From positions 1,360,501 to 1,424,500 of the forward strand of contig NZ_AP024620.1 of the NCBI RefSeq assembly GCF_023734095.1: a stretch of DNA of 64,000 nucleotides, in the 5' to 3' direction. Shown here one piece after another: positions 49,347 through 64,000 of this stretch (its first letter is position 1; every line of letters starts with the position of its first letter). The translations under genes were made by a program, and so were the position numbers. Origin of the DNA: Moorella sp. Hama-1. GTDB lineage: Bacteria; Bacillota; DSM-521; Neomoorellales; Neomoorellaceae. Under the pieces are notes generated by a model. That model was given only the letters and a program-made list of their open reading frames with translations. It was not told the DNA's origin and ran no database searches.

Positions 49347-50024
49347 TTATGCTTCCTCTTGCTCTAAAACACTCAGGGCCTGCTCCAGGGCGGCCTGGTT
49401 ACTGGTGACCACCGGCAGCCCGGTTAGGTACTCCAGGCGATCCCGGACATCCAGGGCATGAAAATTAGTACAGGAAAGGAAGATGCCATCAATCTTTTGT
49501 CCTTCGATGGTCTTCAGGGTAAAGGATAGGATCTCCTCGGGGGTAACACCGGCGATGGCAAAGTTATAATCGATGCCCAAACCGGCAATTAAGGCCACTT
49601 CGAGGCCATCGGCTTCCAGGCTGGCCTGGATACGCTCATTTAAGCTTTCAATGTAAGGGGTTATTACCGCTACCCGGTGCATACCCCTCTTTTTTAAGCT
49701 CTCCCTAACGCTGGCCACCGTACTGATGGCCGGACAGCGGGCTGTATCGCTGATGCGCCGGCAGAGCTCACTGTCATAAGCATTGCCTCGCAGAGCTCCG
49801 GCTGAGGTGCAACCGAAAACAATAGCCTGGGGTTCAACAGTGGCTAAGTCCCGCAGGGCGATGGGAAAATGGCTATCGAGCATCTCCTCTTCTCCGGCTA
49901 CGGTTGTATCCCTTAAATACATGCGTGCTACATGAAGGGTAATACTGTTGGGTAAATGGCGGTAAAAATCTACTTCCATAACTGAGTTGGAGGATGGGAC
50001 GATTAAACCTAGACGTTGCTGCAT
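49347..50024 (-). CDS. Asp/Glu/hydantoin racemase-superfamily enzyme (maleate isomerase-like)
   Basis: 225 residues. Two catalytic cysteines sit in the expected places: VFGCTSAGAL near residue 75 and FLSCTNFHALD near residue 185. The N-terminus LGLIVPSSNSVMEVDFYRHLP is typical of the maleate isomerase/arylmalonate decarboxylase branch. Possible reactions are maleate-fumarate isomerisation, hydantoin racemisation or malonate decarboxylation. The gene is the first structural gene of the cluster next to PucR. Start ATG at 50,024 behind GGGGG. Confidence 0.85.
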   Translation of the reverse strand: MQQRLGLIVPSSNSVMEVDFYRHLPNSITLHVARMYLRDTTVAGEEEMLDSHFPIALRDLATVEPQAIVFGCTSAGALRGNAYDSELCRRISDTARCPAISTVASVRESLKKRGMHRVAVITPYIESLNERIQASLEADGLEVALIAGLGIDYNFAIAGVTPEEILSFTLKTIEGQKIDGIFLSCTNFHALDVRDRLEYLTGLPVVTSNQAALEQALSVLEQEEA

Positions 50025-50110
50025 TTTTAGGCCCCCTTGCCTTTTTATCTTTACATGCAAAGGTATTCGGCGTTCATGCAGCTCTCCCTTTGGACCAGGG
50101 TTACAAATCT

Positions 50111-50147
50111 AAAAAGCCCCCACTGGACCATTCATCAGTGGGGGCTT
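50111..50147 (-). terminator. Terminator of the PucR-type regulator gene
   Basis: AAGCCCCCACTG and CAGTGGGGGCTT, a perfect 12-bp stem with a 10-nt loop. On the minus strand it is followed by TTTAGATTT. It isolates the regulator from the catabolic genes. Confidence 0.85.
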
Positions 50148-50224
50148 CCTTGCCCACGTAAACTACGCTGCTTAACTAGCTCTGTTATAACATAGGCTGG
50201 CATTATTTCAAGCTTTTTCTCAGC

Positions 50225-51856
50225 TCAAGAAGTTAGCTGGGACAATTTTGCGGCTAGCATAAGTAAAAAGCGATCTTCAGCACTATTGAGAGTCAGCCCT
50301 GTAATCTCCTCGATTTTTTTGACCCGGTAAATAACGGAGTTTTTATGGACGAATAAGTCCTGGGCGGTTTTACGCAGGTTTCCCTCGTTGTTGAGATAAC
50401 AAAACAAGGTTGCTACCAGGTCGGTTTTGTTCTGGCTATCGTAATCCCTTAATCTCCCGATATACTCTCGGCAGAAATCTTTCGCCTGGGGTAAATCCTT
50501 GACACTGAACAAGATGCGCAGGGGCCCTAATTCGGCAAAAGAAACTGGTTCCGGCGAAGTGGCCTGCCAGGCTACCTTCAGGGCCAGCAGGGCTTCTTCA
50601 TAGGAGGTTTTAATCTGGGTTAAGCCTTCATAAGCCCGGCCAATACCCACCCGCAACCTGGCTTTAGGGTAGCGGGAGGTGGTCGTAGCCAGGATTTCTT
50701 GTAAAATTCCCGGCACCTCTTGCCCTTTCCCCACGCAATAACGTAACAGGCCGATGACCTGGTCGCCCTTGCTTTGGAGCAGGATTCCCCCGGGGCGCTG
50801 GCCAAAGCGGGCCCGCAGGAGGTGGATAATCTCTGAATGGACATCTATATGGTATCCTGTCGTCCGGTTGTCAATAGCAAAACCAATTATGAAAACTACC
50901 AGCTGGCCCGTCACATTAATCCCCAGGTGAGCGGCGCGTTTGATTATATTTTCCGTATTATCTATTTTCCCCTGGAGCAACTCATCCAGGAGTTCACTAC
51001 CCAGGCGAATCTCGGTCTCGGCAACAGCCCTTTGTTTGGTAAACTCCAGGGCGACGATGGCAGCTCCGGTTTCAATACCCCGGATTTCTATATCGTTTAA
51101 AGGACGGTTGCTTTCGCTAATTACCAGGTAACCGTCTATTGTCTCCTGGGTAGCTACCGGTACAATAACGCAGGCAGGTAATTCGGGACTCAACTGAAGG
51201 TGGGCTGCGCGGTGCGGAGACAGGCTTCTTATCTCTTCTGGAATTTCTTGGAAGATACCGGCCAGAATCTCACCCCGGGCAGGAAGCAGTTGACCGTTCT
51301 TAAGGGGCGGGTAGCCGGCCCCCAGGCAGGTACCACAGCTAAAGATAAAAACAGGGTTGGTCGTAAACTGGGCCAGGGCTTTACAGACCCCGGGCAGGCC
51401 GCTGCCACCCAGGATAACGTTAATCAGGAGATCGTGAATCTCCTGGGAACGCTGGCGGCGATAGAGTTGTTCGTTGATTAACAGTTCAAAGATGGGTAGC
51501 ATGATATCCATATAAGGGACGTCAGAAGGTAATTCCAGCAGGGGCAGGCCTGCCTGGTTGGCGTGCTCGATCATATCGGTAGGGATGTCCTGGAGGTACT
51601 GGCCGGGTTTGATAGCAAATGCGGTTACCCCCTTACCGACCAGGTCGTAGATAATCCGCTTGCGCAGTTCGGGATTATCCTTGAGGGCAAAACCGGCCGT
51701 AAGCAGTAGTTCGCCCCCTTTCATCCAGCGGGTCACTTCCGGAACTTCCATGATATTGACGAAGGTTATTTCCCTTTCCAGGTTGTGGGCACCGGCAACT
51801 ACTCTGGCCCGGCGCAAAGGGCCAATCTGTAAGGCTTGACTCACGGAAAGGGGCAT
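50225..51856 (-). CDS. pucR: PucR-family transcriptional regulator
   Basis: 543 residues. The N-terminal PucR domain (about residues 1-125, SVSQALQIGPLRRARVVAG ... EVPEVTRWMKGGELLLTAGFAL) is followed by a GAF/GGDEF-like middle part and the C-terminal HTH_30 domain (VATLFCYLNNEGNLRKTAQDL ... HKNSVIYRVKKIEEITG). PucR proteins activate purine catabolism in Bacillus and related pathways elsewhere. I take the ATG at 51,856, eight bases after GGGAG. It is transcribed alone and terminates before the cluster it probably controls. Confidence 0.9.
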   Translation of the reverse strand: MPLSVSQALQIGPLRRARVVAGAHNLEREITFVNIMEVPEVTRWMKGGELLLTAGFALKDNPELRKRIIYDLVGKGVTAFAIKPGQYLQDIPTDMIEHANQAGLPLLELPSDVPYMDIMLPIFELLINEQLYRRQRSQEIHDLLINVILGGSGLPGVCKALAQFTTNPVFIFSCGTCLGAGYPPLKNGQLLPARGEILAGIFQEIPEEIRSLSPHRAAHLQLSPELPACVIVPVATQETIDGYLVISESNRPLNDIEIRGIETGAAIVALEFTKQRAVAETEIRLGSELLDELLQGKIDNTENIIKRAAHLGINVTGQLVVFIIGFAIDNRTTGYHIDVHSEIIHLLRARFGQRPGGILLQSKGDQVIGLLRYCVGKGQEVPGILQEILATTTSRYPKARLRVGIGRAYEGLTQIKTSYEEALLALKVAWQATSPEPVSFAELGPLRILFSVKDLPQAKDFCREYIGRLRDYDSQNKTDLVATLFCYLNNEGNLRKTAQDLFVHKNSVIYRVKKIEEITGLTLNSAEDRFLLMLAAKLSQLTS

Positions 51857-52052
51857 GGCTACCACTCCCAGATAAAAACCTTCACTATTATAATCAATAT
51901 TCAACATTGTTTATAGGAAATCCTTTTTTAGAACTTAGTTATAGCTGCTTACCTGAGTTTAAATGGCCTTCGAAACTTACTCCCAAGATGCTCAAAGGAA
52001 GCTGGAACGAAGGAACATCCCCAACAAAGGGATGATGACCAACGGGCTTATA

Positions 52053-52104
52053 AAGAAAAAGGCGCCCGGGGAAGGGATTTTATCTCCCTTCCGTCGCAAG
52101 CGCC
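52053..52104 (-). terminator. Terminator of the selenoprotein oxidoreductase operon
   Basis: A two-part hairpin: GGCGC/GCGCC outer and GGAAGGGA/TCCCTTCC inner stems. On the minus strand TTTTTCTTT follows. It lies 88 bases after the cytochrome b gene. Confidence 0.85.
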
Positions 52105-52192
52105 TTCGCTTTGTCTTGACTTTTACTTTAATATACGCGGCTGTAGCCCTTATGTCAAGAGCGATTTGTTCTTGTTTACCCGGTGGTCCTTC

Positions 52193-52849
52193 TCAACCAC
52201 TGATCTGCTTATACCACTTACCGTGGTGGGAGGCGGCGAAATGGGTGGAGACTGTGCCCCGGAGCATGCCCCAGATGCTCTCCCGGGAGCGGGGATGCAG
52301 GATGGCCAGGTAAATATGGCCCAGGAGGACCCCGCCGAGCAACAGGGCCGTAAAGGAGTGGAGGGGGTGGGCCCAGGCCACCCACGCCGGGCTGAAGGCC
52401 TCCGGCCGGGCCATGGTCCAACCGGTGATGATCATCACCAGGGAACCGAGAATCGTCAGGAGAGAATTAACCTTTTCGCCGGCGTTGAAACGCCCCTGCT
52501 CCGGCAGCTTGACCGGGAGGACAAAGAACTCCCGTGGGAAGCCTTTGATAAACTGCCAGTCTTCCCTGCTCCAGGAAAAGCAGTCCTTCAACCACTGGAA
52601 AAAGCTCCGCGGTGTCCCCAGGAGCAGGACTACTAAACTTAAGACGGTAAAGGGATAGGCGATAAAGCGATGGATGGCGTTGCAGGCTGCCAGGGACTCT
52701 GCCCCCAGGGCGTGATTAAGACTGGTAAATGCAAATGCCGATCCCGTTAAGAGCAGGAGCACAAAGCAGACGGCGTGGCACCAGTGACCCAGGCGTTCAG
52801 CGGCATTAAAACGCACAACCTTATCTGGATTTTTCTTACTCATTGCCAT
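52193..52849 (-). CDS. Membrane cytochrome b subunit (formate dehydrogenase gamma-like)
   Basis: 218 residues with four probable membrane helices. Histidines in HWCHAVCFVLLLLTG (helix 1), IHRFIAYPF (helix 2), HPLHSFTALLLGG and GHIYLAILH (helices 3-4) are candidates for two haem b ligands, as in FdnI/HydC-type quinone-linked subunits. It would connect the Fe-S subunit to the membrane quinone pool. It overlaps the Fe-S gene by 14 bases. TtrABC systems normally use an NrfD-type TtrC, so a cytochrome b here is a departure. Confidence 0.88.
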   Translation of the reverse strand: MAMSKKNPDKVVRFNAAERLGHWCHAVCFVLLLLTGSAFAFTSLNHALGAESLAACNAIHRFIAYPFTVLSLVVLLLGTPRSFFQWLKDCFSWSREDWQFIKGFPREFFVLPVKLPEQGRFNAGEKVNSLLTILGSLVMIITGWTMARPEAFSPAWVAWAHPLHSFTALLLGGVLLGHIYLAILHPRSRESIWGMLRGTVSTHFAASHHGKWYKQISG

Positions 52850-53594
52850 CTCCTCCCCCTCTTTTACTGGCGCCGATGGCTATGCTGGCACCAACGGCCA
52901 CAGCTGCCGCGCCCATGATAGCCTTGCCGGCGGGACGGGCAACATTGAGCCAGGTATTGACTGCCGCCGTTCGGCTCCCCTCACCAGGCAACCCGTTATG
53001 GAAGGGTCCCGCAGGAGTGAAGTTGACCCCTGCCAGGGCCTCCCGGCCGATATAATAAACGTTTTCTTTGGTTCCCAGGCCTGGTGCCAGGGTGCCGGCC
53101 TTATACTTGCGCACCAACTGGCTGACTTCACTGCCGGTGTCCTTTAAATCACCAAAGTAACGGGCATGGGCGATACAGGTGCTGACGCAGGCCGGTTCCA
53201 GGCCGGCACGGACGCGGTGGTAACAGAAGGTACACTTGTCGGCCTGTTTACTGGCCGGGTCGAGATAACGGGCTTCATAGGGACAGGCACTGACGCAATA
53301 GCCGCAACCAATGCATTTTTCCCGGTCAATTAAGACTATACCCTCGGCGTTGCGGTAACTGGCCCCCGTGGGGCAGACCTTGATGCAGGGGGCTTCGCTG
53401 CAGTGGTTGCACAGGCGGGGAAGCTTTACCCTGGTCACGTTAGGATAGGTGCCCTTATCGGCCTCCTGGACGTAGGATCGGAAATGGCCCCGCGCCACGT
53501 TATTTTCCATATTGCAGACCACAGTACAGGCATGGCAACCGACACAGCGGCGCAGGTCAATGACCATGCCGTACTGCTTCGTTGTCGAACTCAA
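52836..53594 (-). CDS. Four-cluster ferredoxin subunit (TtrB/PsrB/NrfC-like)
   Basis: About 252 residues. Four [4Fe-4S] motifs are visible: CVGCHACTVVC, CNHCSEAPCIKVCP, CIGCGYCVSACP and CTFC...PACVSTC. The C-terminal 35 residues form a hydrophobic segment (GKAIMGAAAVAVGASIAIGA) that may anchor it in the membrane, unusual for the family. No Tat signal is seen, so it should ride out with the catalytic subunit. I use the TTG at 53,594, eight bases after GGAGG; the gene overlaps the chaperone gene upstream by 38 bases. Confidence 0.9.
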   Translation of the reverse strand: MSSTTKQYGMVIDLRRCVGCHACTVVCNMENNVARGHFRSYVQEADKGTYPNVTRVKLPRLCNHCSEAPCIKVCPTGASYRNAEGIVLIDREKCIGCGYCVSACPYEARYLDPASKQADKCTFCYHRVRAGLEPACVSTCIAHARYFGDLKDTGSEVSQLVRKYKAGTLAPGLGTKENVYYIGREALAGVNFTPAGPFHNGLPGEGSRTAAVNTWLNVARPAGKAIMGAAAVAVGASIAIGASKRGGGDGNE

Positions 53595-54231
53595 GACCTT
53601 CACCTCCTGCCAGGATATCATGGAGATATTCTTTATCGGCGGTGACCCAGCCGGCGCATAACTGGAGCAGGGAGCTGTAAAGCCCCGGTCCGGTATCCTC
53701 CGTCAGCCGGGCGTATACCGGCAACCAGCGGTCCAGATGGGACGAGAGAAATTGGGCCTCCAGTTTAGTCCAGGATCTATCTTCGCCGGCATTGGCCTCC
53801 TGCTGGCACAGGTAAGCCATCAGGGCCAGTTCCAGTCCCAGGTGATCGGCCAGGTGGATTTCCTTTAAAGGCGGAAACATAGCCAGGCTCCATGGGTCGA
53901 AAGCCACCGCCAGGTAACAGGCCACGACGTGACAGGTGGCCGGACCATTCAAGGGACCATAACCAATCTCCCTTACCGAATCCCGCCCGGCCGCCGTAAT
54001 CAGGGGCTCGATGGCTGCTTCATAAGGCGGCACAAAGCGGCCGGAAGACGGGACAAAGAACCGGTCAAAATACTCCTGGCGCGCTGTAGCCAAGTCTTTT
54101 TCCCCCGGCTCGCCCCCCTCCTGCCGGAGTAAATCCCGGGCTTCCTTAAGCCATAACTCGTCGGGCTCTTGCAGCAGGGAGCGGGCCCAGAAGCCATAGG
54201 TGACCGCTCGCTGGCCGGCTATCGTCTTCAT
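53557..54231 (-). CDS. TorD-family molybdoenzyme chaperone
   Basis: 224 residues, all-helical by composition. TorD/DmsD-like features are YEAAIEPLITAAGRDSVREIG, HLADHLGLELALMAYLCQQE near residue 120 (the conserved histidine-aspartate region) and LDRWLPVYARLTE. Such proteins hold the Tat signal of the catalytic subunit back until the cofactor is inserted. The ATG overlaps the stop of the oxidoreductase gene (ATGA), which ties chaperone and client together. Confidence 0.87.
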   Translation of the reverse strand: MKTIAGQRAVTYGFWARSLLQEPDELWLKEARDLLRQEGGEPGEKDLATARQEYFDRFFVPSSGRFVPPYEAAIEPLITAAGRDSVREIGYGPLNGPATCHVVACYLAVAFDPWSLAMFPPLKEIHLADHLGLELALMAYLCQQEANAGEDRSWTKLEAQFLSSHLDRWLPVYARLTEDTGPGLYSSLLQLCAGWVTADKEYLHDILAGGEGLEFDNEAVRHGH

Positions 54232-57200
54232 GCCGGTTCCACCCGGTAGGCGCCACCGTTGCGGCCCGGGCCGCCGGTGGCCATTTCACTGTAGGCAAAG
54301 AGGCCCTTGACGCTTGGGTCCGTAAGGCTCATCCGGCTAAGGCAGATACCGGTGCCGCGCCGGGGTTCACCCTTGACGGCCTGGGAACCAAACTGGCCGT
54401 CCCGGGAACCATACTCCCAGTGACCGTAACCAAAGGCCACCCCTAGGGCTCCCCGGGCAATACCCGGCCGGACCCTCAACTGACCCATGGCCTGGGCGCC
54501 GGTGGCGGCTACGAGTTTAACCCGCTGGCCGTCTTTCAGGCCCAGTTTGGCCGCGTCTTCACTGTTCATCTCAATGAAGTTGGCCGGCCCCAGATCTTGC
54601 ATAATAGGGGCGTTGGTCAGCATGCTGACGCTACGGAATTTAGCCTTGTAAGAAACAGCCTTGAAAGGCCACTTATCGGGCGGGAAGGCCTTATCCAGGG
54701 GCGTACCGTCAGCCAGGGCCTCCGGGTACCAGCCCATGACGCCGGGATAGAACTCACCGGTGAAGGAGTTTCTGCTGGTGGCCAGGACCTCGCTATAGAC
54801 ATTGAAAACGCCGGTAGAAGGATACTTATGGTTGTCACCTTCAAAGCCGCCGCCATAATCTTCAAAACGACCGCCCCGGGAGAGAACGTAGAGGACCGGG
54901 GGCCATTCCTTAGGCTTCAAGGCCTGGCGCCAGTCGCCGGTGGCCTGATCCAGTTCCTGGAGGCGGGTTTCCTCGGGCTGAATGGCCGGTACCGGCGTAC
55001 CGTCAAAAGCTACGTTGGCCACAGCTTTTAAGAAGAAATCAGCCGGGGTGTTTAAGGGATAGAGATTGCCGTCTTTATCGGGTATGGCCTGATCGCCAAA
55101 GCCGGGAACGCCGATCTTTTTGGCCACGTCAATCAGGAAATTTTCGTAGCAGGCATAACGCCCGGGTCCGATTTTGGGCGTCATGGGGATGACCACCGGC
55201 CAGCGTATGGTGCTGGCTTTGGTAGGCACGTTGCCCTCCGGCGTCCAGACCCCCCAGCTCTCATACTGGGTGGTATCAGGAAGGATATAGTCTGCCAGGG
55301 AGGTAGATTCCCCCATAAAAGCGTCGCAGGCAATAATCAACGGCACCCGTTCTGGTTTCTTGAGTTCGTTAATAACCTCTTCCCGCCCGGCCGCCGGGCT
55401 GGTCATCAGGGGATTGGTCATCCAGAAAATGACGATCTTTGCCTGGTACGGATAGCCGTTGGCGATAGAGAAAATCGCCTGATTGTCGTTGGCGCCGTTA
55501 ACCGGGTGCCAGGGGAATTTAGAGGGATAAGGTTTTTCCCCCTTCGCCATCTTATTCTTATATTCGCTAGTCTTCTCGTAGGGGAAGCCGCAGCGGTCAA
55601 TACGGGCGCCGGCGGTTTTGGCCATGCCGGGATATTTAGTGAGATCGTAGCGTGGACCGGGGGTGAAGGATTTATACTGCAGCCGCCGGGGGATGACGCC
55701 GCCCTTTTTGTTGCACGCCCCCACCAGGGCCGGCAGCAGAGTCAGACCCCAGGCGGCAAAGAGGCCGTTAGCTGCGGCTGTCCCACCAAGGCCGCTGACA
55801 CACACCCTGGTGCCGTGGGAAGTAAACTCCCGGGCCAGGGCGATGATTTGCTCTTTGGGCACACCACAGGCCTCAGCATATTGCTCATAGGTGTATTTCA
55901 TGGCGCTGGCCTTAAGGAGATTCATGCTGGTTTCGACTTTGATGGGCTGGCCGTCGGGGCCGGTAACCGTGCCGGCAAAGAAGAGCTCGGCCTCCTTGCT
56001 GGCGCTATGCAGGGCCGGCTTGCCACTGGCCTTGTCCATGACCACAAAGTATTTGGGCGCCGGTTGGGCTTCGGTCCCCGGGGCTGGTTCCGGCGGTGGT
56101 GGTACGGACAGACCGATGTCTTCCGGGGCCAGCATCTTACGGTAATGGGGATGCTGGGGATCGGTGATAACCAGGTGGGTGGCGTTGGTCCAGCTGTTGA
56201 ATCCCTTCTCCCTGGCCGCCGCCAGGTTGGGCGAGCTTAAAAAGGTGGTATTAATCTTATTATTTTCCAGCATCCAGCGGATCATGCCCAGCATCAGGGC
56301 CGCGTCAGTCGCCGGTTTAACGGGCAACCATCTGGTTTTTTCGTTTAAGGGGTTAAGGGCACCGCCCTGGAGGACGGGATCGACGACCACAAATTGGGCT
56401 TTGCCGTCCGCGGCCGCCCGGGCCGCCTGGCGGGCCATGGCAGTCATTGGTTTCCCGCTATGCCCGGGGTAGGCGCCGATGAAGAGGGCAAATTCCGTAT
56501 TGTTGACATCAGGCCTCAGGCCTTCTCCAGCCACCTGCGCCGCAGGTGTAGCCGAGCCCCCTCAGCTGCTACCGTGGCCGTAGTTATTGACGGTACCGAA
56601 GGCCCCGGCAAAACGACCGGCAAAGACGGTGCGGCCGTCGCCCCGCCCGCCGCACATGACCAGCTGGTTGGCTTTAGGCCCTAACTCCGGTTGAGACGGA
56701 TCCAGGGGGGTTTTCCGGTCGAAGACCTGGCGGAAACCCTCTACCTGGCGGTCTTCACCCACATGCTGGAAAAGTTGGCCGCCCTCAACTGTTTCCTGGA
56801 CGGCCTGTTCCCAGGTAATGGGCTGCCACTTGTTTTCTCCCCTTTTCCCGGCCCTTTTTAAAGGTGTTAAAAGGCGCATGGGGTCGTAATGGGCCTGGAG
56901 GGTGGCATTGCCCCGGCCGCAAAGGACGGAGCGACCCTCGTGGCCCTTATCTTTGTAGGTGCTGAAGGCCAAATAGGCCTCGGCCAGGGGGGCGTTGTAA
57001 GCCAGGTGGGGTTCAGTGTTGTTGGGGTTGTAGGGATTACCGTAAACCCTTAAGATCTGGCCTGTTTTTTTATCGATTTTCACCCGGTTGCCGCAGGAAC
57101 TATAGCAACCGAGGCAGGCACTATGACGCATGATAATCTCCGGGTTGGGCTGGACGTTACCGCTGGCCGGGTCGATCCGGGCCTCAACTGCCTGGCCGCC

Positions 57201-57323
57201 GCTGTCATCTGCGGGTGGCAGACCAGCCGGAGGTGCGGCCTGGCTCCGGGGTTCCAGGCCCAGGCCGCAGAAGGCCGTGGCCCCTACGGCCGCCGACAGC
57301 TTTAAAAACTCACGGCGATTCAC
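54228..57323 (-). CDS. Selenocysteine-containing molybdopterin oxidoreductase, TtrA-like, Tat-exported
   Basis: 1,031 residues if TGA at 56,562-56,564 is read as selenocysteine (residue 254). A Tat signal NRREFLKLSAAVGATAFCG begins at the GTG, eight bases after AAGGGG. The N-terminal [4Fe-4S] site is CLGCYSSCG...CGRGNA. Sec lies in NYGHGSS-U-GGSATPA, where the family has the Mo/W ligand. The molybdopterin domains follow, and the C-terminal dinucleotide-binding domain has FGYGHWEYGSRDGQ, as I recall it in tetrathionate reductases. A hairpin begins 14 bases after the TGA. Both sides of the TGA are intact and in frame. Tetrathionate, thiosulfate, selenate or arsenate are possible substrates; none is shown by sequence. 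Confidence 0.85.
56530..56564 (-). promoter_or_regulatory. Bacterial SECIS-like hairpin at the in-frame TGA
   Basis: After TGA (56,562-56,564) come 13 bases and then CACCTGC-GGC-GCAGGTG, a perfect 7-bp stem with a GGC loop. The loop starts 20 bases after the TGA and opens with G, which fits the general bacterial SECIS rules (loop 16-37 bases downstream with an early G). SelB binding is inferred. Confidence 0.7.
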
Positions 57324-57374
57324 TAAAACTTCACCCCTTATAAAGTCAAGATAAATCCATGTGTGAACTATAAC

Positions 57375-57392
57375 TTGCAAGAAACATGCCAA
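57375..57392 (-). promoter_or_regulatory. Sigma-54 (-24/-12) promoter of the selenoprotein operon
   Basis: Minus strand TTGGCATGTTTCTTGCAA matches the TGGCA-N7-TTGC consensus, with GG and GC elements at the required spacing. Transcription would start near 57,365, about 42 bases before the GTG at 57,323. The insertion element ends 8 bases upstream of it. A sigma-54 activator gene lies on the far side of the element. Confidence 0.8.
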
Positions 57393-57399
57393 CAAAAAA

Positions 57400-59287
57400 C
57401 TCACATTCCGCACCCTGTGAGCAACTAAAAATGATTTTTAGGTGCAGAAGAAAATAAAAGTAGAGAGAATCTTCTAACCAGGAATTACTAATTCCATGTC
57501 GAATCATTTCTCCAAGAGAATTCTGGAGGAATGTTCGATGCCCGTAGCCATCGATAATATGCGCTTCTTCCGGGCCGGTCCCGCAGCCCTGATCGCCAGG
57601 CTATGTGACGTCCTAAAGATAACAGAAATCATTGATGCCGTAGTCGAATGGGACCCGGTCCAGTGCCATCTTTCCCCGGGCACTCGGGTTAAGGCGCTGA
57701 TCATTAATCTCCTAGTAGACCGGGAGGCCCTTTATCATGTCGAGCGCTTTTTTGAGAACCAGGACCTGGAGGTCTTGTTTGGAACTGAGCAACAGATCCG
57801 GGCTGAAGATTTTAACGACGACGCCTTGGGTCGGGCCCTGGATAAACTCTTCGCCAGCGGCCAGTTAAAGAAGTTGTTCTCCAGCATTGCCTTAACTGCC
57901 GCCGCAACTCACAACGTGCCTATCGAAGGCATCCACGTCGATACTACCTCCATTTCCGTGCAGGGAGCCTATGAGGGTGAAGGAGATTTAGATATCACCT
58001 TCGGTTTTAGCAAAGATCATCGCCCCGACCTCAAGCAGTTTCTCATCGGTTTAACCGTAAACAAGGACGGGTTACCCATTTTAGGTCAGAGCCTGGACGG
58101 CAATACGAGTGATAAGTCCTGGTATCCTCAGGTTATTGAGGAATTGGTGCAAAACTTCAGCCCGGCAAAGCTTAAAGAGATCATCTTTGTGGCGGACTGC
58201 GCCCTGGTAACCAAGGATAACCTGGCGCTGCTGGTCCAGGAGGAAGAAAACAAACCAGCCCTCCAATTCATCTCCCTGTTACCGGAGAACTTTGGCCTTA
58301 ACAAGGAGATCAAAGCCGAGGCCTTTCACACCGGCGCCTGGCAGGAGATCGGGAATTTAAGCCAGAAGGAAGACGCCGCCAGGTATAAAAGCCAGAGCTT
58401 TGTCCGGGAAATAGACGGCAAGGACTTCCGGTTAATCGTAGTTCACTCCACGACCTTGGATAAACGCAAAGAGAAGAGCCTCTTAAAAAAGTGGGCCAAG
58501 CAAAAGGAAACTTTAGCAAAGGCCGCCCGGGAACTCTCCCGGCGTCCCTTCGCCTGTGATGCCGATGCCAGGAAAGCCATAGAGCTCTTCTGCCAGGAAT
58601 ACCGCCACCAACCTTTCATCTTCAAGGGTACAGTTACTGAAGAGATAGAGAGCAGCTATGCCAAACGGGGGCGGCCCAAGAAAGAAGAGCAGCCCCAGAA
58701 CACAGTTGTTTACCATGCCTACATCCAGGTAGATGAAGATCCGGAAGCAATGGCCCAGGAGAAGGACCTGGCTTCCACCTTCGTCCTTATTACCAATCTC
58801 ATGGATACCGCAGCCTACCCCGACGGGGAAGTGCTCAAGGAGTATAAGGAACAGAACGCTGTCGAGAGGCAGTTCCGTTTTCTTAAACAGCCGGTCCTCC
58901 TGGGGCCTATCTTTCTCAAAAACAAGGACCGGGTAGAAGCCATGTCCTTCGTCTTTCAGTTAGCCCTTCTGGTGGCAGCTTACCTGGAGTATCGGGTTAG
59001 AAAAAATCTGGAGCAACAAGAGGCTCCTTTAATCCTGCCGGGGAAGAGGAAAAGTACTAACCCTACGGCCCGGGCACTCCTGGAGATGTTTGATTATCTC
59101 CTGGTAGTTAAACAAGGTCCGGACAGGGCGTTAATCAATTACCACGGTACGGAGGTGATTAGAGCCCTTGAACTCGCGGGGTTCGGTAAGGAAATCTACC
59201 TTTTCCCACCTAGCGGTGGTGGGTAGGAATATTTTTTAAGGCCCCCCAAAAATGTTGGTAACTATATCCAGAGGTGCGGAATGTGGG
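57400..59287 (+). mobile_element. Intact insertion sequence, IS1634/IS4-superfamily type, 1,888 bp
   Basis: Ends CTCACATTCCGCACC (57,400-57,414) and GGTGCGGAATGTGGG (59,273-59,287) are inverted repeats matching at 14 of 15 positions. A 6-bp direct repeat AAAAAA flanks it (57,394-57,399 and 59,288-59,293), so the target duplication is preserved and insertion is recent or stable. One full transposase gene fills it. The right junction is the T-tract of the response-regulator terminator. Confidence 0.9.
57538..59226 (+). CDS. IS1634-type DDE transposase
   Basis: 562 residues. The DDE nuclease core is recognisable: VDTTSISVQG (first Asp, about residue 140), FVADCALVTKDNLALL (second Asp, about residue 218) and the YREKQ-like segment EYKEQNAVERQFRFLK (Glu, about residue 445). 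The N-terminal part (NMRFFRAGPAALIARLCDVLKITEIID) is the DUF4277 domain common in this group. I choose the ATG at 57,538, six bases after GGAGGAA; a start at 57,496 would put this site inside the gene. The frame is uninterrupted, so the element may be active. Confidence 0.92.
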   Translation: MPVAIDNMRFFRAGPAALIARLCDVLKITEIIDAVVEWDPVQCHLSPGTRVKALIINLLVDREALYHVERFFENQDLEVLFGTEQQIRAEDFNDDALGRALDKLFASGQLKKLFSSIALTAAATHNVPIEGIHVDTTSISVQGAYEGEGDLDITFGFSKDHRPDLKQFLIGLTVNKDGLPILGQSLDGNTSDKSWYPQVIEELVQNFSPAKLKEIIFVADCALVTKDNLALLVQEEENKPALQFISLLPENFGLNKEIKAEAFHTGAWQEIGNLSQKEDAARYKSQSFVREIDGKDFRLIVVHSTTLDKRKEKSLLKKWAKQKETLAKAARELSRRPFACDADARKAIELFCQEYRHQPFIFKGTVTEEIESSYAKRGRPKKEEQPQNTVVYHAYIQVDEDPEAMAQEKDLASTFVLITNLMDTAAYPDGEVLKEYKEQNAVERQFRFLKQPVLLGPIFLKNKDRVEAMSFVFQLALLVAAYLEYRVRKNLEQQEAPLILPGKRKSTNPTARALLEMFDYLLVVKQGPDRALINYHGTEVIRALELAGFGKEIYLFPPSGGG

Positions 59288-59322
59288 AAAAAAGACCCGG
59301 AAAAGGTGACTTTTCCGGGGTC
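59288..59322 (-). terminator. Terminator of the response-regulator gene, invaded by the IS
   Basis: GACCCCGGAAAAG-TCAC-CTTTTCCGGGTC (minus strand, one bulged base) is followed by TTTTTT, which is the target duplication, and then by the IS end. It lies about 100 bases past the gene. Termination should still work because the duplicated T-tract is retained. Confidence 0.8.
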
Positions 59323-59341
59323 GGGGCGAGATAGTTTTGCT

Positions 59342-59367
59342 CCTCTGACATGCCATTTTGACAGGGG
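59342..59367. promoter_or_regulatory. Candidate enhancer site (UAS) for the sigma-54 activator
   Basis: CCTCTGACA-8 nt-TGACAGGGG is a dyad matching at 7 of 9 positions. Without the IS it would be centred about 70 bases upstream of the -24 element, where activator sites are usual. With the IS it is almost 2 kb away. Assignment is inferred from position and symmetry only. Confidence 0.35.
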
Positions 59368-59423
59368 CCTGGTCATATTGACATACTTTGTACCTCTACC
59401 CGCAGGTTTTCCGAGGCGAGTTT

Positions 59424-60773
59424 CTATAAACCATACTCTTCTATTTTGCGGTACAGGGTGCGCAAGCCAATACCCAGCAGGCGGGCGGCCCGGGTTTTAT
59501 TGCCACCGGTCAGGCTCAAAACCCTGGATATATGCTGGCGCTCCAGGCTGGCCAGGGTCAGGTCTACTTCTTCGTATAGTGAGGGAGCGCTAGATGTCCC
59601 ATGACCGGCGGCGGGGCCAAAGAGGTGGGCCGGTTCGATAACGCTCCCCGGGGCCAGCAAGATGCCCCGCTCGATCATATTGGCCAGTTCCCGGACATTG
59701 CCGGGGAAGTCGTACTCCTGGAGAGCGGCCATGGCTGCCGGGCTTAACTTTTTTTCCTGCCGGGTGTTATTTTTCGCCTGCAAGAAGTAACGGGCCAGCA
59801 AGGGAATATCCTCACGCCTTTCCCGCAGGGGCGGCAGGGTGATGGTGATGACATTCAGGCGGTAGTAAAGGTCCTCCCGAAAGCGGCCCTCCGGAATTTC
59901 CTGCGCCAGGTGGCGATTGGTGGCTGCCACCACCCGGACCTTTACCCGGTGCACCCGGGTATCCCCTACCCGGTGGTATTCGCCCGTCTCTAAAAAGCGC
60001 AGGAACTTGGCCTGGACCGCCGGGTCCATGTCGGCTATCTCATCCAGGAACAGGGTGCCGCCGGCGGCCACCTCCACCAGGCCGGCTTTGCTGGCGACAG
60101 CGCCGGTAAAGGCGCCGCGGGTGTGGCCAAAAAGCTCGCTCTCCACCAGCTGGGGCGGTACGGCGGCGGAGTTAAGGGCCTGGAAGGGTTGATCCCGGCG
60201 GCTGCTGTTAAAGTGCAGGGCCCGGGCTACCAGTTCTTTCCCGGTGCCGCTCTCCCCCAGGACGAGGACAGGTGCCTCGCTGTCAGCTACCTTGGCAATC
60301 AGGGCCAGAACCTCCCGCATGGCCGGGCTCTGGCCAATAATGACCCCGGCGCCGGTCTGGCGCCGCAGGGCCTCGGATAAACCTTCCGCCCTGGTGGCCA
60401 GGCGTTTTTTCTCGGCGGCCTGGCGCAGGGCTAATTCCAGCTGGGCGGCCTGGCAGGGTTTGGTCAGGTAGTCGTAGGCTCCTTCCTTGATGGCGGCAAT
60501 GGCGTTCTCAATGCTGCCATAACCGGTTAACATAATTACCTCCAGGCAGGGCAACATTTTTTTGGCCCGGCGCAGGAGCTCCAGGCCGTCTATGCCTGGC
60601 AGGCGCTGGTCAAAGACGGCCACGTCGAAATCGTTCTTCTGCAGCGCGGCCAGCGCTTCCTCGGCCGTAGCCACGGCCATAACCTCAAAGCCGTGGCGCT
60701 CCAGGCGCTGCTGCAGGAGCCGGTTGAAGGTTATCTCATCTTCAACCAGGAGTACCCAGGTCGGTTTTTCCAT
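59424..60773 (-). CDS. Sigma-54-dependent response regulator (NtrC type)
   Basis: 449 residues. The receiver domain (1-120) has the phosphorylated Asp in DVAVFDQRLPG. The AAA+ domain has Walker A LGESGTGKELVAR, the sigma-54 contact loop RGAFTGA, and Walker B TLFLDEIADM. The Fis-type HTH at the end reads ISRVLSLTGGNKTRAARLLGIGLRTLYRKIEEYG. I use the ATG at 60,773 with CAGGAGG upstream. It should activate the sigma-54 promoter at 57,375. Its terminator has been invaded by the IS. Confidence 0.93.
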   Translation of the reverse strand: MEKPTWVLLVEDEITFNRLLQQRLERHGFEVMAVATAEEALAALQKNDFDVAVFDQRLPGIDGLELLRRAKKMLPCLEVIMLTGYGSIENAIAAIKEGAYDYLTKPCQAAQLELALRQAAEKKRLATRAEGLSEALRRQTGAGVIIGQSPAMREVLALIAKVADSEAPVLVLGESGTGKELVARALHFNSSRRDQPFQALNSAAVPPQLVESELFGHTRGAFTGAVASKAGLVEVAAGGTLFLDEIADMDPAVQAKFLRFLETGEYHRVGDTRVHRVKVRVVAATNRHLAQEIPEGRFREDLYYRLNVITITLPPLRERREDIPLLARYFLQAKNNTRQEKKLSPAAMAALQEYDFPGNVRELANMIERGILLAPGSVIEPAHLFGPAAGHGTSSAPSLYEEVDLTLASLERQHISRVLSLTGGNKTRAARLLGIGLRTLYRKIEEYGL

Positions 60774-60796
60774 TACAGATCCTCCTGAGTTCAATA

Positions 60797-60880
60797 ATTT
60801 GCTTACGCCTCGAACCAAGTCACCCTCCGCCTGTTACCTCCAGCCTCTTATCTCGTCCTGTATTTTCCTTGTTCGCTGGC
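60797..60880. repeat. Dispersed repeat, copy B
   Basis: Resembles 2979-3063 with an identical 16-base core at 60,806-60,821. It fills the 120-bp gap between the kinase and regulator genes. Its presence in two operon gaps points to a small mobile repeat. Confidence 0.6.
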
Positions 60881-60895
60881 AGGCTGTTAGAAGAG

Positions 60896-62812
60896 TTATA
60901 CCTGTTCACCGGACATTAGCGGAATGGCTATCCGCTGAGTTAGGGGTAGCTTGATGTCGACCCTGGTTCCCTGCCCCGGTTGACTGCTTATATCTATCTG
61001 TCCCCCGGCGGCGGTGACGATGCCGTAGCAGACCGACAGCCCCAGGCCGGTGCCCTGACCGGGTGGCTTGGTGGTAAAGAAGGGTTCAAAGACATGGGGC
61101 AGGGCCTCGGGGGGAATGCCTGTACCGTCGTCCTGGACCGTAAGGGCCAGGGTGGTGGTGTCCACCAGTTTGCTGGTGACAGTTAGGTGGCCGCCCCGGG
61201 GGAGGGCCTGAAGAGCGTTGCATACCAGGTTAAAGACCACCTGCATAATCCCTTCCCGATCACCATATATCGATGGGATGGCCGGGTCAAGAAAAGTTTC
61301 TACGTTGATTTTCTCCTTGCGGATCTTATAAGCCGGCAGGGTGAGAACGTCCTGGATCACCTGGTTAAGGTCATAGAGTTCCTCTTTATATTCCCGCTGG
61401 CGGGCGAAGTCCAGCAAGCGGCGGGTAATACCGGCGCAGCGCCCGGCCTGTTCGTGAATGAGTTTCAGATACTGGCTTAGTTCACCGTTTTCCTTGAGGA
61501 GGTTGATATCCTCCTCCTGCAGCCGTTCCAGAAGGTCCTCAGTGGACAGGGAGATAGTTGCCAGGGGATTGTTGATCTCGTGGGCTACCCCTGCGGCCAG
61601 GAGGCCTACGGTCACCATCTTATCCGCCTGGCGGATGGCCACTTCCATCCCCTTCTTTTGCTGCAATTCCTGGCTGAGCTGGTTAAAAGCGCTTATGACC
61701 TGCCCCAACTCGTCCTCACCGGCCCCGGGCAGGTTGTAACCCAGTTCCCCGGCGGCCACCCGGTGGACGCCTTCTTCTAGCTCTTCCAGCTTACGGCTGA
61801 ACCGCAGGCCGAAGGCCAGGCTGACAGCCAGGACCAGGAGAATAATCGCCAGGGCCCCCAGGGTAAAGTTGCGTATCAGGGTGTGAAAGGGGGCATAGGC
61901 GTTAGCTACGGGCTGTTCGATGATGACCCTCCAGCCGGTATTCCCCACCGGGGCGGCGGCGCCGATGACCTCCTGGCCTGTATAGGACTGGTAGCGGCTG
62001 ACCGCGGGCAGGCCATTGTTATTTGCCCGTAATGACAGTCGAGAGAAGGGGCTGGGGGAATTGTCAGATGGCAGGCCGCCACCAGCTGATGGTATGGCCA
62101 GGGCTGCCAGGCTGGGGCGGACATCCCTACCTTGCAATACCTGGCTGTAGTCCTCATGGCCAATCAATCGCCCCTCTCCATCGACCAGGAAGAGATAGCC
62201 CCCTGGCCCTACCGGGATGGCCGTCAGGCGGTCGATGATATTACGCAGGCTGACCAGGGCGATAAGGCCCCCGCCCGGGTGACCATCGGGCTCGGGTAGT
62301 AAAGGAACGGCCAGTTGAAAAACGGGTTCTTTATCCGGGGTAAAATATACCGACCCCTGATAGGTCTGCCCCTGGTTCAGGCTGTGCAGGGCGGCAGCAT
62401 ACAAATCCGGTTGGAATTGTTGGGGTGGGAGGACCTCGCGGCCGGAAACCTGGGCCAGGAGGTGGCCAGCGCTATCGACGACCAGGAGTTCCCGGACATC
62501 AGGCATCTTGCTCCTGGCGGCGTCCAACAACCAGGCCCGTTCCCTGGCGGGCATGGCGGCCAGGCCACTACCAGAGGTAACGGCCAGGACCTTTAAGGAG
62601 TGCTGGAGTTCATTTAAAAGGGAGGTCAGGTTGTCGGCTACCTGGGAAATACCCAGGGCGTGGTGATAGCTGATGCTGGTCTCCAGGTTCTGCCGGGCGA
62701 TGCGCAGGTTATAAAACCCCAGCAGGGCCAGGGGGAGGATGGACATTAAAACCCCAAAGCAAAGGAGACGAAACTTGATCCGCCGCCACCAACGGGGCCG
62801 TAAGGGCTTCAC
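60896..62812 (-). CDS. Membrane sensor histidine kinase with extracellular Cache domain
   Basis: 638 residues. A membrane helix (LLCFGVLMSILPLALLGFYNL), an extracellular Cache-like domain (about 40-300, with GPGGYLFLVDGEGRLIGHEDY), a second helix (LGALAIILLVLAVSLAFGL), HAMP (about 330-385), then the kinase core: H-box AAGVAHEINNPLATISLS, N-box NLVCNALQALP, G1 DDGTGIPPEAL and G2 GTGLGLSVCYG. The GTG start overlaps the binding-protein stop (GTGA). It should phosphorylate the adjacent regulator and receive a signal directly or from the binding protein. Confidence 0.92.
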   Translation of the reverse strand: MKPLRPRWWRRIKFRLLCFGVLMSILPLALLGFYNLRIARQNLETSISYHHALGISQVADNLTSLLNELQHSLKVLAVTSGSGLAAMPARERAWLLDAARSKMPDVRELLVVDSAGHLLAQVSGREVLPPQQFQPDLYAAALHSLNQGQTYQGSVYFTPDKEPVFQLAVPLLPEPDGHPGGGLIALVSLRNIIDRLTAIPVGPGGYLFLVDGEGRLIGHEDYSQVLQGRDVRPSLAALAIPSAGGGLPSDNSPSPFSRLSLRANNNGLPAVSRYQSYTGQEVIGAAAPVGNTGWRVIIEQPVANAYAPFHTLIRNFTLGALAIILLVLAVSLAFGLRFSRKLEELEEGVHRVAAGELGYNLPGAGEDELGQVISAFNQLSQELQQKKGMEVAIRQADKMVTVGLLAAGVAHEINNPLATISLSTEDLLERLQEEDINLLKENGELSQYLKLIHEQAGRCAGITRRLLDFARQREYKEELYDLNQVIQDVLTLPAYKIRKEKINVETFLDPAIPSIYGDREGIMQVVFNLVCNALQALPRGGHLTVTSKLVDTTTLALTVQDDGTGIPPEALPHVFEPFFTTKPPGQGTGLGLSVCYGIVTAAGGQIDISSQPGQGTRVDIKLPLTQRIAIPLMSGEQV

Positions 62813-63825
62813 TCTCCCACCCCTGTTCCCGGGGTTCTAATTATTCTCGTAGCGCAGGCCAGACCGGCGGGGTTCAGCTCTAACCCCAGTCGGGCCGCCG
62901 TATTCTGATTGACAATAAACTGCACGTTGGCCGGGGACTCTACCGGAATGGTGGCCGGATTCTGGCCCCGCAGGACCTTGGCCACCAGGCGGCTGGCCTG
63001 GTGGCCCTGTTCCCGGTAAGGCATGCCATAGGAAGCCAGCAATCCCTTCAGGGTCTGGTTCTCACTGACACCCATGACGGGTAAATGTCGCTCTATAGCG
63101 ACGGGATTAATGGCCCCGGTCATGGATTCCAGTAACAGGCTGCAGAGGAGCATGACACCATCCGTCCGGTCCGGTGTCAGGGAACGTAGGGTAGCGACTA
63201 CTTCTTTTTTATCCCGGACCGGGTAAAAATCGACCTGCAGGCCCAGACGGCGGCTTACCTCTTGCACGTAGTCCACTGTGGGCCGGGCCGGGGTCACCCG
63301 GGGATCATAGAGGACGGCCACCCGGTGCAGGCCGGGCAGTAAGCGCTGGAAATACTCCAGGCGTTTGCCGGAGAGCTGGACATAGTAATTATCGACACCG
63401 GTAAAGTTATTGCCGCTGGCGAGATGGCTTTCAATCAGGCCCAGTTCTACCGGGCAACCGACACCAACGAACACTACCGGTATGGGGTGTTCCCTGGTTG
63501 CCTCCCGGGCTGCCAGGGCCTCAGCCTCACCAGTAACGACCAGGACATCAGGCTGCTGCTGGACCAGATCCCGGGCCAGCCGGGGCAGATCCTCCGAATG
63601 GCCGCCGGCGTTACGGGTGATAAAGCTAATATTTTTACCCTCGGCAAAGTTATAGCGGGCCAGGCCCTCCTTCAGGCCGGTCACTTTATCGTTTTTCAGG
63701 TCCGAGGCCATCAGGACGGCTACCTGCTGGGGCCGGGAGGAGCCAGCTATACCCGGTAGCAGGAATAAAGCTGTTGCCAGCAGGCTCCCCACGATCATGG
63801 CCATCAGGATAATCCGCGCTTTCAC
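62809..63825 (-). CDS. Extracellular substrate-binding protein (ABC-type, COG2984-like), probable sensor partner
   Basis: 338 residues with an N-terminal signal or anchor helix (RIILMAMIVGSLLATALFLLPGIAGS). The fold is a two-lobe periplasmic-binding type: VAVLMASDLKNDKVTGLKEGL, RDLVQQQPDVLVVTGEAEALAA, IPVVFVGVGCPVELGL, LPGLHRVAVLYDPRVTPARPTVDYVQEV. No ABC permease or ATPase gene adjoins it, and it is translationally coupled to the kinase gene. I infer that it is a ligand receptor for the kinase, comparable to the binding domain built into TtrS. GGGGGG lies eight bases before the GTG. Confidence 0.85.
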   Translation of the reverse strand: MKARIILMAMIVGSLLATALFLLPGIAGSSRPQQVAVLMASDLKNDKVTGLKEGLARYNFAEGKNISFITRNAGGHSEDLPRLARDLVQQQPDVLVVTGEAEALAAREATREHPIPVVFVGVGCPVELGLIESHLASGNNFTGVDNYYVQLSGKRLEYFQRLLPGLHRVAVLYDPRVTPARPTVDYVQEVSRRLGLQVDFYPVRDKKEVVATLRSLTPDRTDGVMLLCSLLLESMTGAINPVAIERHLPVMGVSENQTLKGLLASYGMPYREQGHQASRLVAKVLRGQNPATIPVESPANVQFIVNQNTAARLGLELNPAGLACATRIIRTPGTGVGE

Positions 63826-63924
63826 TCGATATGCCCCCCTAAAACTCCCGGCGTTTCTACTTTTTATTTCGCCAGGATAACTTTATCTCCTGCTTAAATA
63901 GTTTTGACTTCAAAGTACTAAAAC

Positions 63925-63956
63925 AAAAAAGCCGGCCTGCTAAAGACAGGACCGGC
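63925..63956 (-). terminator. Terminator of a gene to the right of the window
   Basis: GCCGG-CCTG...CAGG-CCGGC hairpin, followed on the minus strand by TTTTTTGTTT. No gene in the window uses it, so it should end a minus-strand gene beyond 64,000. The binding-protein promoter lies between it and 63,826. Confidence 0.75.
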
Positions 63957-64000
63957 AAACAATAAAACTCTCTATATAAATTAACCATCATGTTTTTTAT

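Follow-up and report, generated by a model that had tools for sequence, protein, structure and literature searches.

Within the window, the 64,000-nucleotide stretch of Moorella sp. Hama-1 DNA that was analysed, one frame of 1031 codons runs on the reverse strand from a GTG at 57323 to 54228. It terminates with TGA at 54230-54228, and its sole internal stop is another TGA, codon 254, at 56562-56564 on the same strand, in the context NNYGHGSS-TGA-GGSATP. Read conventionally with translation table 11, the frame yields two ORFs, one of 283 residues from a GTG at 57413 and one of 768 residues from a GTG at 56534, and our coordinates confirm the description in a first-pass annotation of two pieces in the same frame, separated by the TGA and nine codons. 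The GTG at 57323 is the likelier start codon of the catalytic gene, because a ribosome-binding-site-like (Shine-Dalgarno-like) sequence, AAGGGGTGA (57331-57339, reverse strand), lies 7 nt upstream, and an N-terminal twin-arginine (Tat) export signal, VNRREFLKL... (57237-57323, reverse strand; TIGR01409, TAT_signal_seq, 19.9 bits, cut-off 16.7), lies directly downstream. The predicted product is the catalytic subunit of a TtrA-type molybdopterin oxidoreductase in which codon 254 would be read as selenocysteine (Sec) at the Mo/W ligand position; domains of the MopB (DMSO reductase) family were detected above their cut-offs (PF00384, Molybdopterin, 76.3 bits; PF01568, Molydop_binding, 41.3 bits).

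The catalytic gene is followed on the reverse strand by genes for a TorD/DMSO-reductase-type chaperone (53557-54231; PF02613), which adjoins the Sec gene in the Sec homologues examined, and for a TtrB-like 4Fe-4S electron-transfer subunit (52836-53621), a conserved neighbour whose best NCBIfam match is TtrB (NF011569, 223.2 bits, cut-off 416). The same three-gene order was found in those Sec loci whose sequence extends far enough. Next in the window, where TtrC would be NrfD-type, profile matches identify a cytochrome b561/FdnI-type membrane anchor (52193-52849, reverse strand), which is also present in G351 (L068), a second genome of the window's own genus. The corresponding gene in G346 and G386 encodes an NrfD protein, the only NrfD-type anchors beside a Sec gene among the Sec loci seen, and the Tissierella group has no anchor directly beside the operon. 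Some copies have Tat genes (L135) or a MobA-like gene (L134) as neighbours. Beside the Tissierella-group operon we also observed a recurrent, uncharacterised Fe-S protein that carries Fer4 motifs at its two ends (L011 12724-13881; L134 12644-13792; L135 4161-5192); a similar protein is encoded close to the Cys member L015 (13610-14584).

On the other side of the catalytic gene, and also on the reverse strand, profile matches identify three conserved neighbours: a sigma-54-dependent response regulator (59424-60818), a dCache sensor histidine kinase (60896-62812), and an ABC_sub_bind periplasmic binding protein (62809-63825; PF04392) that is likely to be the ligand sensor of the kinase. The trio adjoins the Cys member L069 as well, and L015 has the binding protein and kinase; it was not seen beside the copies in G351 and G299. 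A sigma-54 (-24/-12) promoter-like element, TGGCATGTTTCTTGC (57377-57391, reverse strand), lies 68 nt before the start codon; the 64-kb window contains no other strict match. The element recurs 66-93 nt before those relatives' genes that have the regulator trio; none was found ahead of the copies in G351 and G299, which lack the trio. The regulator genes are separated from the catalytic gene by an IS1634-family transposase gene on the forward strand (57496-59226; NF033559, 307 bits), which is absent at the corresponding place in relatives and around which a search for terminal inverted repeats found none; its insertion may have put extra distance between the catalytic-gene promoter and the site bound by the activator.

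Homologues were collected by a search covering the window's phylum and order, related classes, Desulfobacterota and the Tissierella order, in ~1,600 genome look-ups, overlaps included. Counting the window's gene, 13 TGA-containing genes were found in 12 genomes, the other 12 being 45-57% identical to the window protein; carriers include Tissierella praeacuta DSM 18095 (L011), Tissierella sp. P1 with two copies (L013, L132), G351 (L021), and a Geobacter MAG contig (L012), which is the sole Desulfobacterota case and, being only 4.8 kb long, may be misbinned. In all 13 genes the TGA occupies the codon-254 column, and in ~80 other homologues the same column holds Cys, with no third residue at this site. 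Four N-terminal cysteines (C70, C73, C77 and C135) are invariant. In the alignment with the ArrA chain of structure 6cz7 (chain 41-854), residue 254 is paired with position 153, which is Cys193 by entry numbering and which we take to be the molybdenum ligand. The placement of the TGA at the metal-ligand position of NYGHGSS-TGA-GGS, made by the first-pass annotation from the letters alone, is thus borne out by the homologues and the ArrA alignment.

One further candidate, G435:C7:1488-3902, was left out of the count because its frame breaks at residue ~816, away from the ligand site, and formate dehydrogenase-like TGA hits in G035, G131 and G097 also stand outside the 13 genes. The second Sec-containing copy of Tissierella sp. 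P1 (L133 3503-6586; L132) is divergent, 45% identical to the window protein, and lies ~10 kb from the first across a shared regulator trio. In each of G346 and G386, a Sec enzyme is accompanied by a Cys enzyme from the same branch (L089 and L090 with L018 and L019), a natural pair for comparison. A different molybdopterin oxidoreductase frame, G000:C1:1649417-1650628 (L006, L139), consists of 264 and 425 codons with an in-frame TAG between them.

Immediately after the UGA, the window contains a SECIS-type hairpin, CACCTGC-GGC-GCAGGTG (56532-56548, reverse strand; nt 17-33 with the U of UGA as nt 1), whose 7-bp stem starts at the 14th base after the TGA and whose GGC loop lies 20 nt after the UGA, with a folding energy of -9.8 kcal/mol. 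The bacterial SECIS model given in PMC13188914 has a loop of 3-9 nt with G in its first two places, a stem of 4-16 bp, a UGA-to-loop distance of 16-37 nt and an energy of -7.5 kcal/mol or lower, and the window hairpin satisfies the loop, stem, spacing and energy rules. The hairpin reported at first pass is therefore present and within SECIS rules, but when compared with synonymous recodings of the same peptide it gave p = 0.085, so that a single hairpin is weak evidence. An Rfam scan of window positions 50000-64000 returned no meaningful RNA family, with two chance-level matches far below gathering scores.

When the 12 other TGA homologues are added, the combination of TGA site and hairpin is far beyond chance. 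A SECIS-type hairpin follows the UGA in 13/13 genes, and in 12 of these, taking the U of UGA as nt 1, the stem measures 6-8 bp and opens at nt 16-18, and the loop G falls at nt 24; the hairpin of L021 is displaced by ~3 nt relative to the others. Against synonymous recodings, individual p values ranged from 0.001 to 0.165, and the combined value, taking the weaker value from each of nine clusters, was p = 1.8e-9, which is only approximate because the clusters are related by descent. In the 13-sequence alignment both sides had changed in 6 of 7 stem pairs and 89% of cells pair, a degree of covariation matched by 0 of 500 shuffles and likewise nowhere near approached by slides. Among the 13 nearest Cys genes, nine, including L014, are without such a hairpin, and the remaining ones have hairpins that are weaker or misplaced. 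Folded as bare stems, 7/13 of the hairpins reach only -5.3 to -7.2 kcal/mol and so miss the model's limit of -7.5, although longer elements fold lower. Within the same genome, the hairpin of its own fdhA has the same offset from the UGA as the window hairpin, and that of its own selD is comparable.

The expectation that the decoding machinery should exist in this organism was also confirmed, since the genome holds selB (383.8 bits), an adjoining selA (623.7 bits), tRNA-Sec/selC (72.2 bits) and a TGA-containing selD (396.9 bits), all over their cut-offs. SelB and SelD were present in 8/8 carriers tested, these being the eight found first of the 12 carrier genomes. Taken with the 13 TGA genes sharing one column and the covariation of the hairpin, the presence of this machinery supports reading the TGA as selenocysteine, as was first proposed.

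Because an IS1634 element lies just upstream and table 11 annotation yields two pieces, the TGA could be thought a nonsense mutation or sequencing error in a decaying pseudogene. We give this almost no credence, since the identical TGA occurs in 13 genes of several families, never as TAA or TAG, the hairpin is conserved with covariation, and the operon is intact. Moreover, comparison of Sec genes in four closely related pairs gave dN/dS of 0.02-0.08 before the TGA and 0.06-0.10 after it; this strong purifying selection indicates that the downstream part is translated, under constraint much like that upstream. Each half can also be read as an ORF, which would fit a pair of distinct proteins, or programmed termination after residue 253 and a second half initiated at the GTG at 56534. 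Such an arrangement is very improbable: Cys homologues are single chains across residue 254, start codons after the TGA lie at differing places among relatives, and the cut would land in the active site.

A full-length product would also result if the TGA were read as Cys or Trp through a changed code or near-cognate readthrough, and Cys at this position should be tolerable since relatives have it. We consider this highly unlikely too, because a conserved SelB-type hairpin follows the internal TGA and the full Sec machinery is present; in addition, the same gene terminates with TGA, so that TGA is a stop in this organism.

The TtrA model (NF011567) aligned with residues 3-1024 of the window protein at 807.7 bits, under the equivalog cut-off of 1750, and a homologue from Aeromonas scored 1343 bits on the same model. 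The two fall in one 26-row clade (SH-aLRT 99), in a tree built without any characterised SrdA or arsenate reductase. A structure predicted with Sec modelled as Cys had a pLDDT of 86.9 and a pTM of 0.89, the loop around residue 254 being less certain (block mean 67), and its best structural match was respiratory ArrA (6cz7; Z 33.9, 3.3 Å over 719 residues). Although ArrA is the closest structure and its Cys193 aligns with Sec254, it differs in having a Cys ligand, in sharing 21% identity, and in belonging to a different subfamily model, on which the window protein scored 86.6 bits (cut-off 1600).

The catalytic subunit falls far short of NCBI's cut-off for TtrA, and "tetrathionate reductase" is used here as the name of the clade to which the protein belongs and not for its substrate. 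A selenoprotein acting on another substrate, such as selenate, arsenate or polysulfide, would differ from a tetrathionate-reducing one in substrate only, and we judge the chances of this to be about even. In its favour, besides the score, are the ligand loop of the Sec clade (U-GGSKTP or similar), which is unlike those of the Aeromonas homologue (CGLSFR) and the nearest Cys clade (CGGSRRI); the sensor kinase, which matches the TtrS model (NF040750) in its kinase part only, at 103.8 bits (cut-off 750); and the published clade itself, which combines TtrA, SrdA and archaeal arsenate reductase (PMC7331816). On the other hand, no curated model scores higher than TtrA across the whole catalytic subunit, and TtrB is the top match of the Fe-S subunit.

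In a tree of 27 rows, the 13 Sec genes and one Cys gene, L014 from a Christensenella MAG, form a single clade (100/100) within Cys-only relatives, with L014 branching beside the G346/G386 pair (91/94). A Sec-only clade excluding L014 was rejected by the AU test (p 6.7e-5; p 8.7e-4 with fewer rows), and a history of one gain and no loss was therefore dropped. The most parsimonious history needs two changes, most simply one gain of Sec from Cys and one return to Cys, and is likely but short of certain because branches are long and sampling is modest. L014 (8001-11042) has no hairpin left, its genome retains selB and selD, and it is likely to be a Sec-to-Cys reversion.

Published sources list the ligand of TtrA and SrdA as Cys (PMC7331816, PMC10100899), as they do that of archaeal arsenate reductase (PMC7331816). 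Among 119 selenoprotein families inventoried in 2026, the MopB catalytic subunits named are formate dehydrogenase and FwdB, and no further one turned up when the whole text was searched by word; the inventory has no TtrA-type entry, and its one "tetrathionate reductase" is an octaheme cytochrome, a different protein (PMC13188914). Nor is a TtrA-type enzyme named among the M. thermoacetica selenoproteins given in PMC1794560, or a Sec form in any model of NCBIfam release 20, and we found no description of Sec in such an enzyme in open-licence full texts. The Sec form is thus not in the published selenoprotein surveys cited, although RefSeq may already record some of these genes as Sec proteins under generic names. 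The first-pass view that Sec is rarely or never described in a tetrathionate-reductase-type enzyme agrees with these sources, provided that the term is taken as a clade name and not as a shown substrate.

The window protein resembles TtrA of the TtrABC system, SrdA and archaeal arsenate reductase in its full-length TtrA-model alignment, Tat signal, four N-terminal cysteines and TtrB-like partner. It differs from Cys-ligated TtrA in its predicted Sec metal ligand and in scoring well under the equivalog cut-off, and its sensor system is a different one; several Sec members have a cytochrome b anchor, or none adjacent, where the Ttr system has NrfD (TtrC). With the Sec-containing formate dehydrogenases (FdhA, FdnG, FdhF) and FwdB/FmdB it shares membership of the MopB family and Sec in the corresponding Mo/W-ligand place; the bacterial ones also have a hairpin immediately downstream of the UGA. 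Those enzymes belong to another MopB branch and have the motif UHxP (PMC13188914), where the window clade has UGGS or UGGA, and their substrates are formate and CO2, not chalcogen compounds.

Taken together, the locus is very probably one selenoprotein gene, encoding an exported respiratory Mo/W reductase of the TtrA branch of MopB in which Sec254 replaces Cys as the ligand of Mo/W-bisPGD. During translation, SelB carrying Sec-tRNA(Sec) would bind the hairpin just after UGA254 and Sec would be inserted, the terminal TGA ending translation as usual. The TorD-type chaperone would handle the folded, cofactor-loaded subunit for export by Tat. Electrons from the membrane would reach the catalytic subunit by way of the cytochrome b anchor and then the 4Fe-4S subunit, for reduction of an inorganic compound of sulfur, selenium or arsenic. 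The periplasmic binding protein, dCache kinase and sigma-54 activator may sense this acceptor and turn on the -24/-12 promoter.

Sec-ligated Mo/W enzymes named in the cited literature all act on formate or formylmethanofuran. We consider it probable that in this chalcogen-compound-reducing branch Sec was newly gained from Cys as the Mo/W ligand and then reverted in the L014 lineage, making this a third kind of Sec-ligated MopB enzyme, one in which Sec is derived. Such a gain is relevant to the view, published in PMC7331816, that the ancestral ligand was Sec. Since table 11 annotation splits the Sec genes, they would be overlooked in surveys of tetrathionate or selenate respiration. If a Sec-ligated respiratory reductase for S, Se or As compounds exists, the role of selenium at the metal could be tested in a different reaction, with G346 and G386, which have both forms, and the likely revertant L014 offering natural Sec/Cys pairs for comparison.
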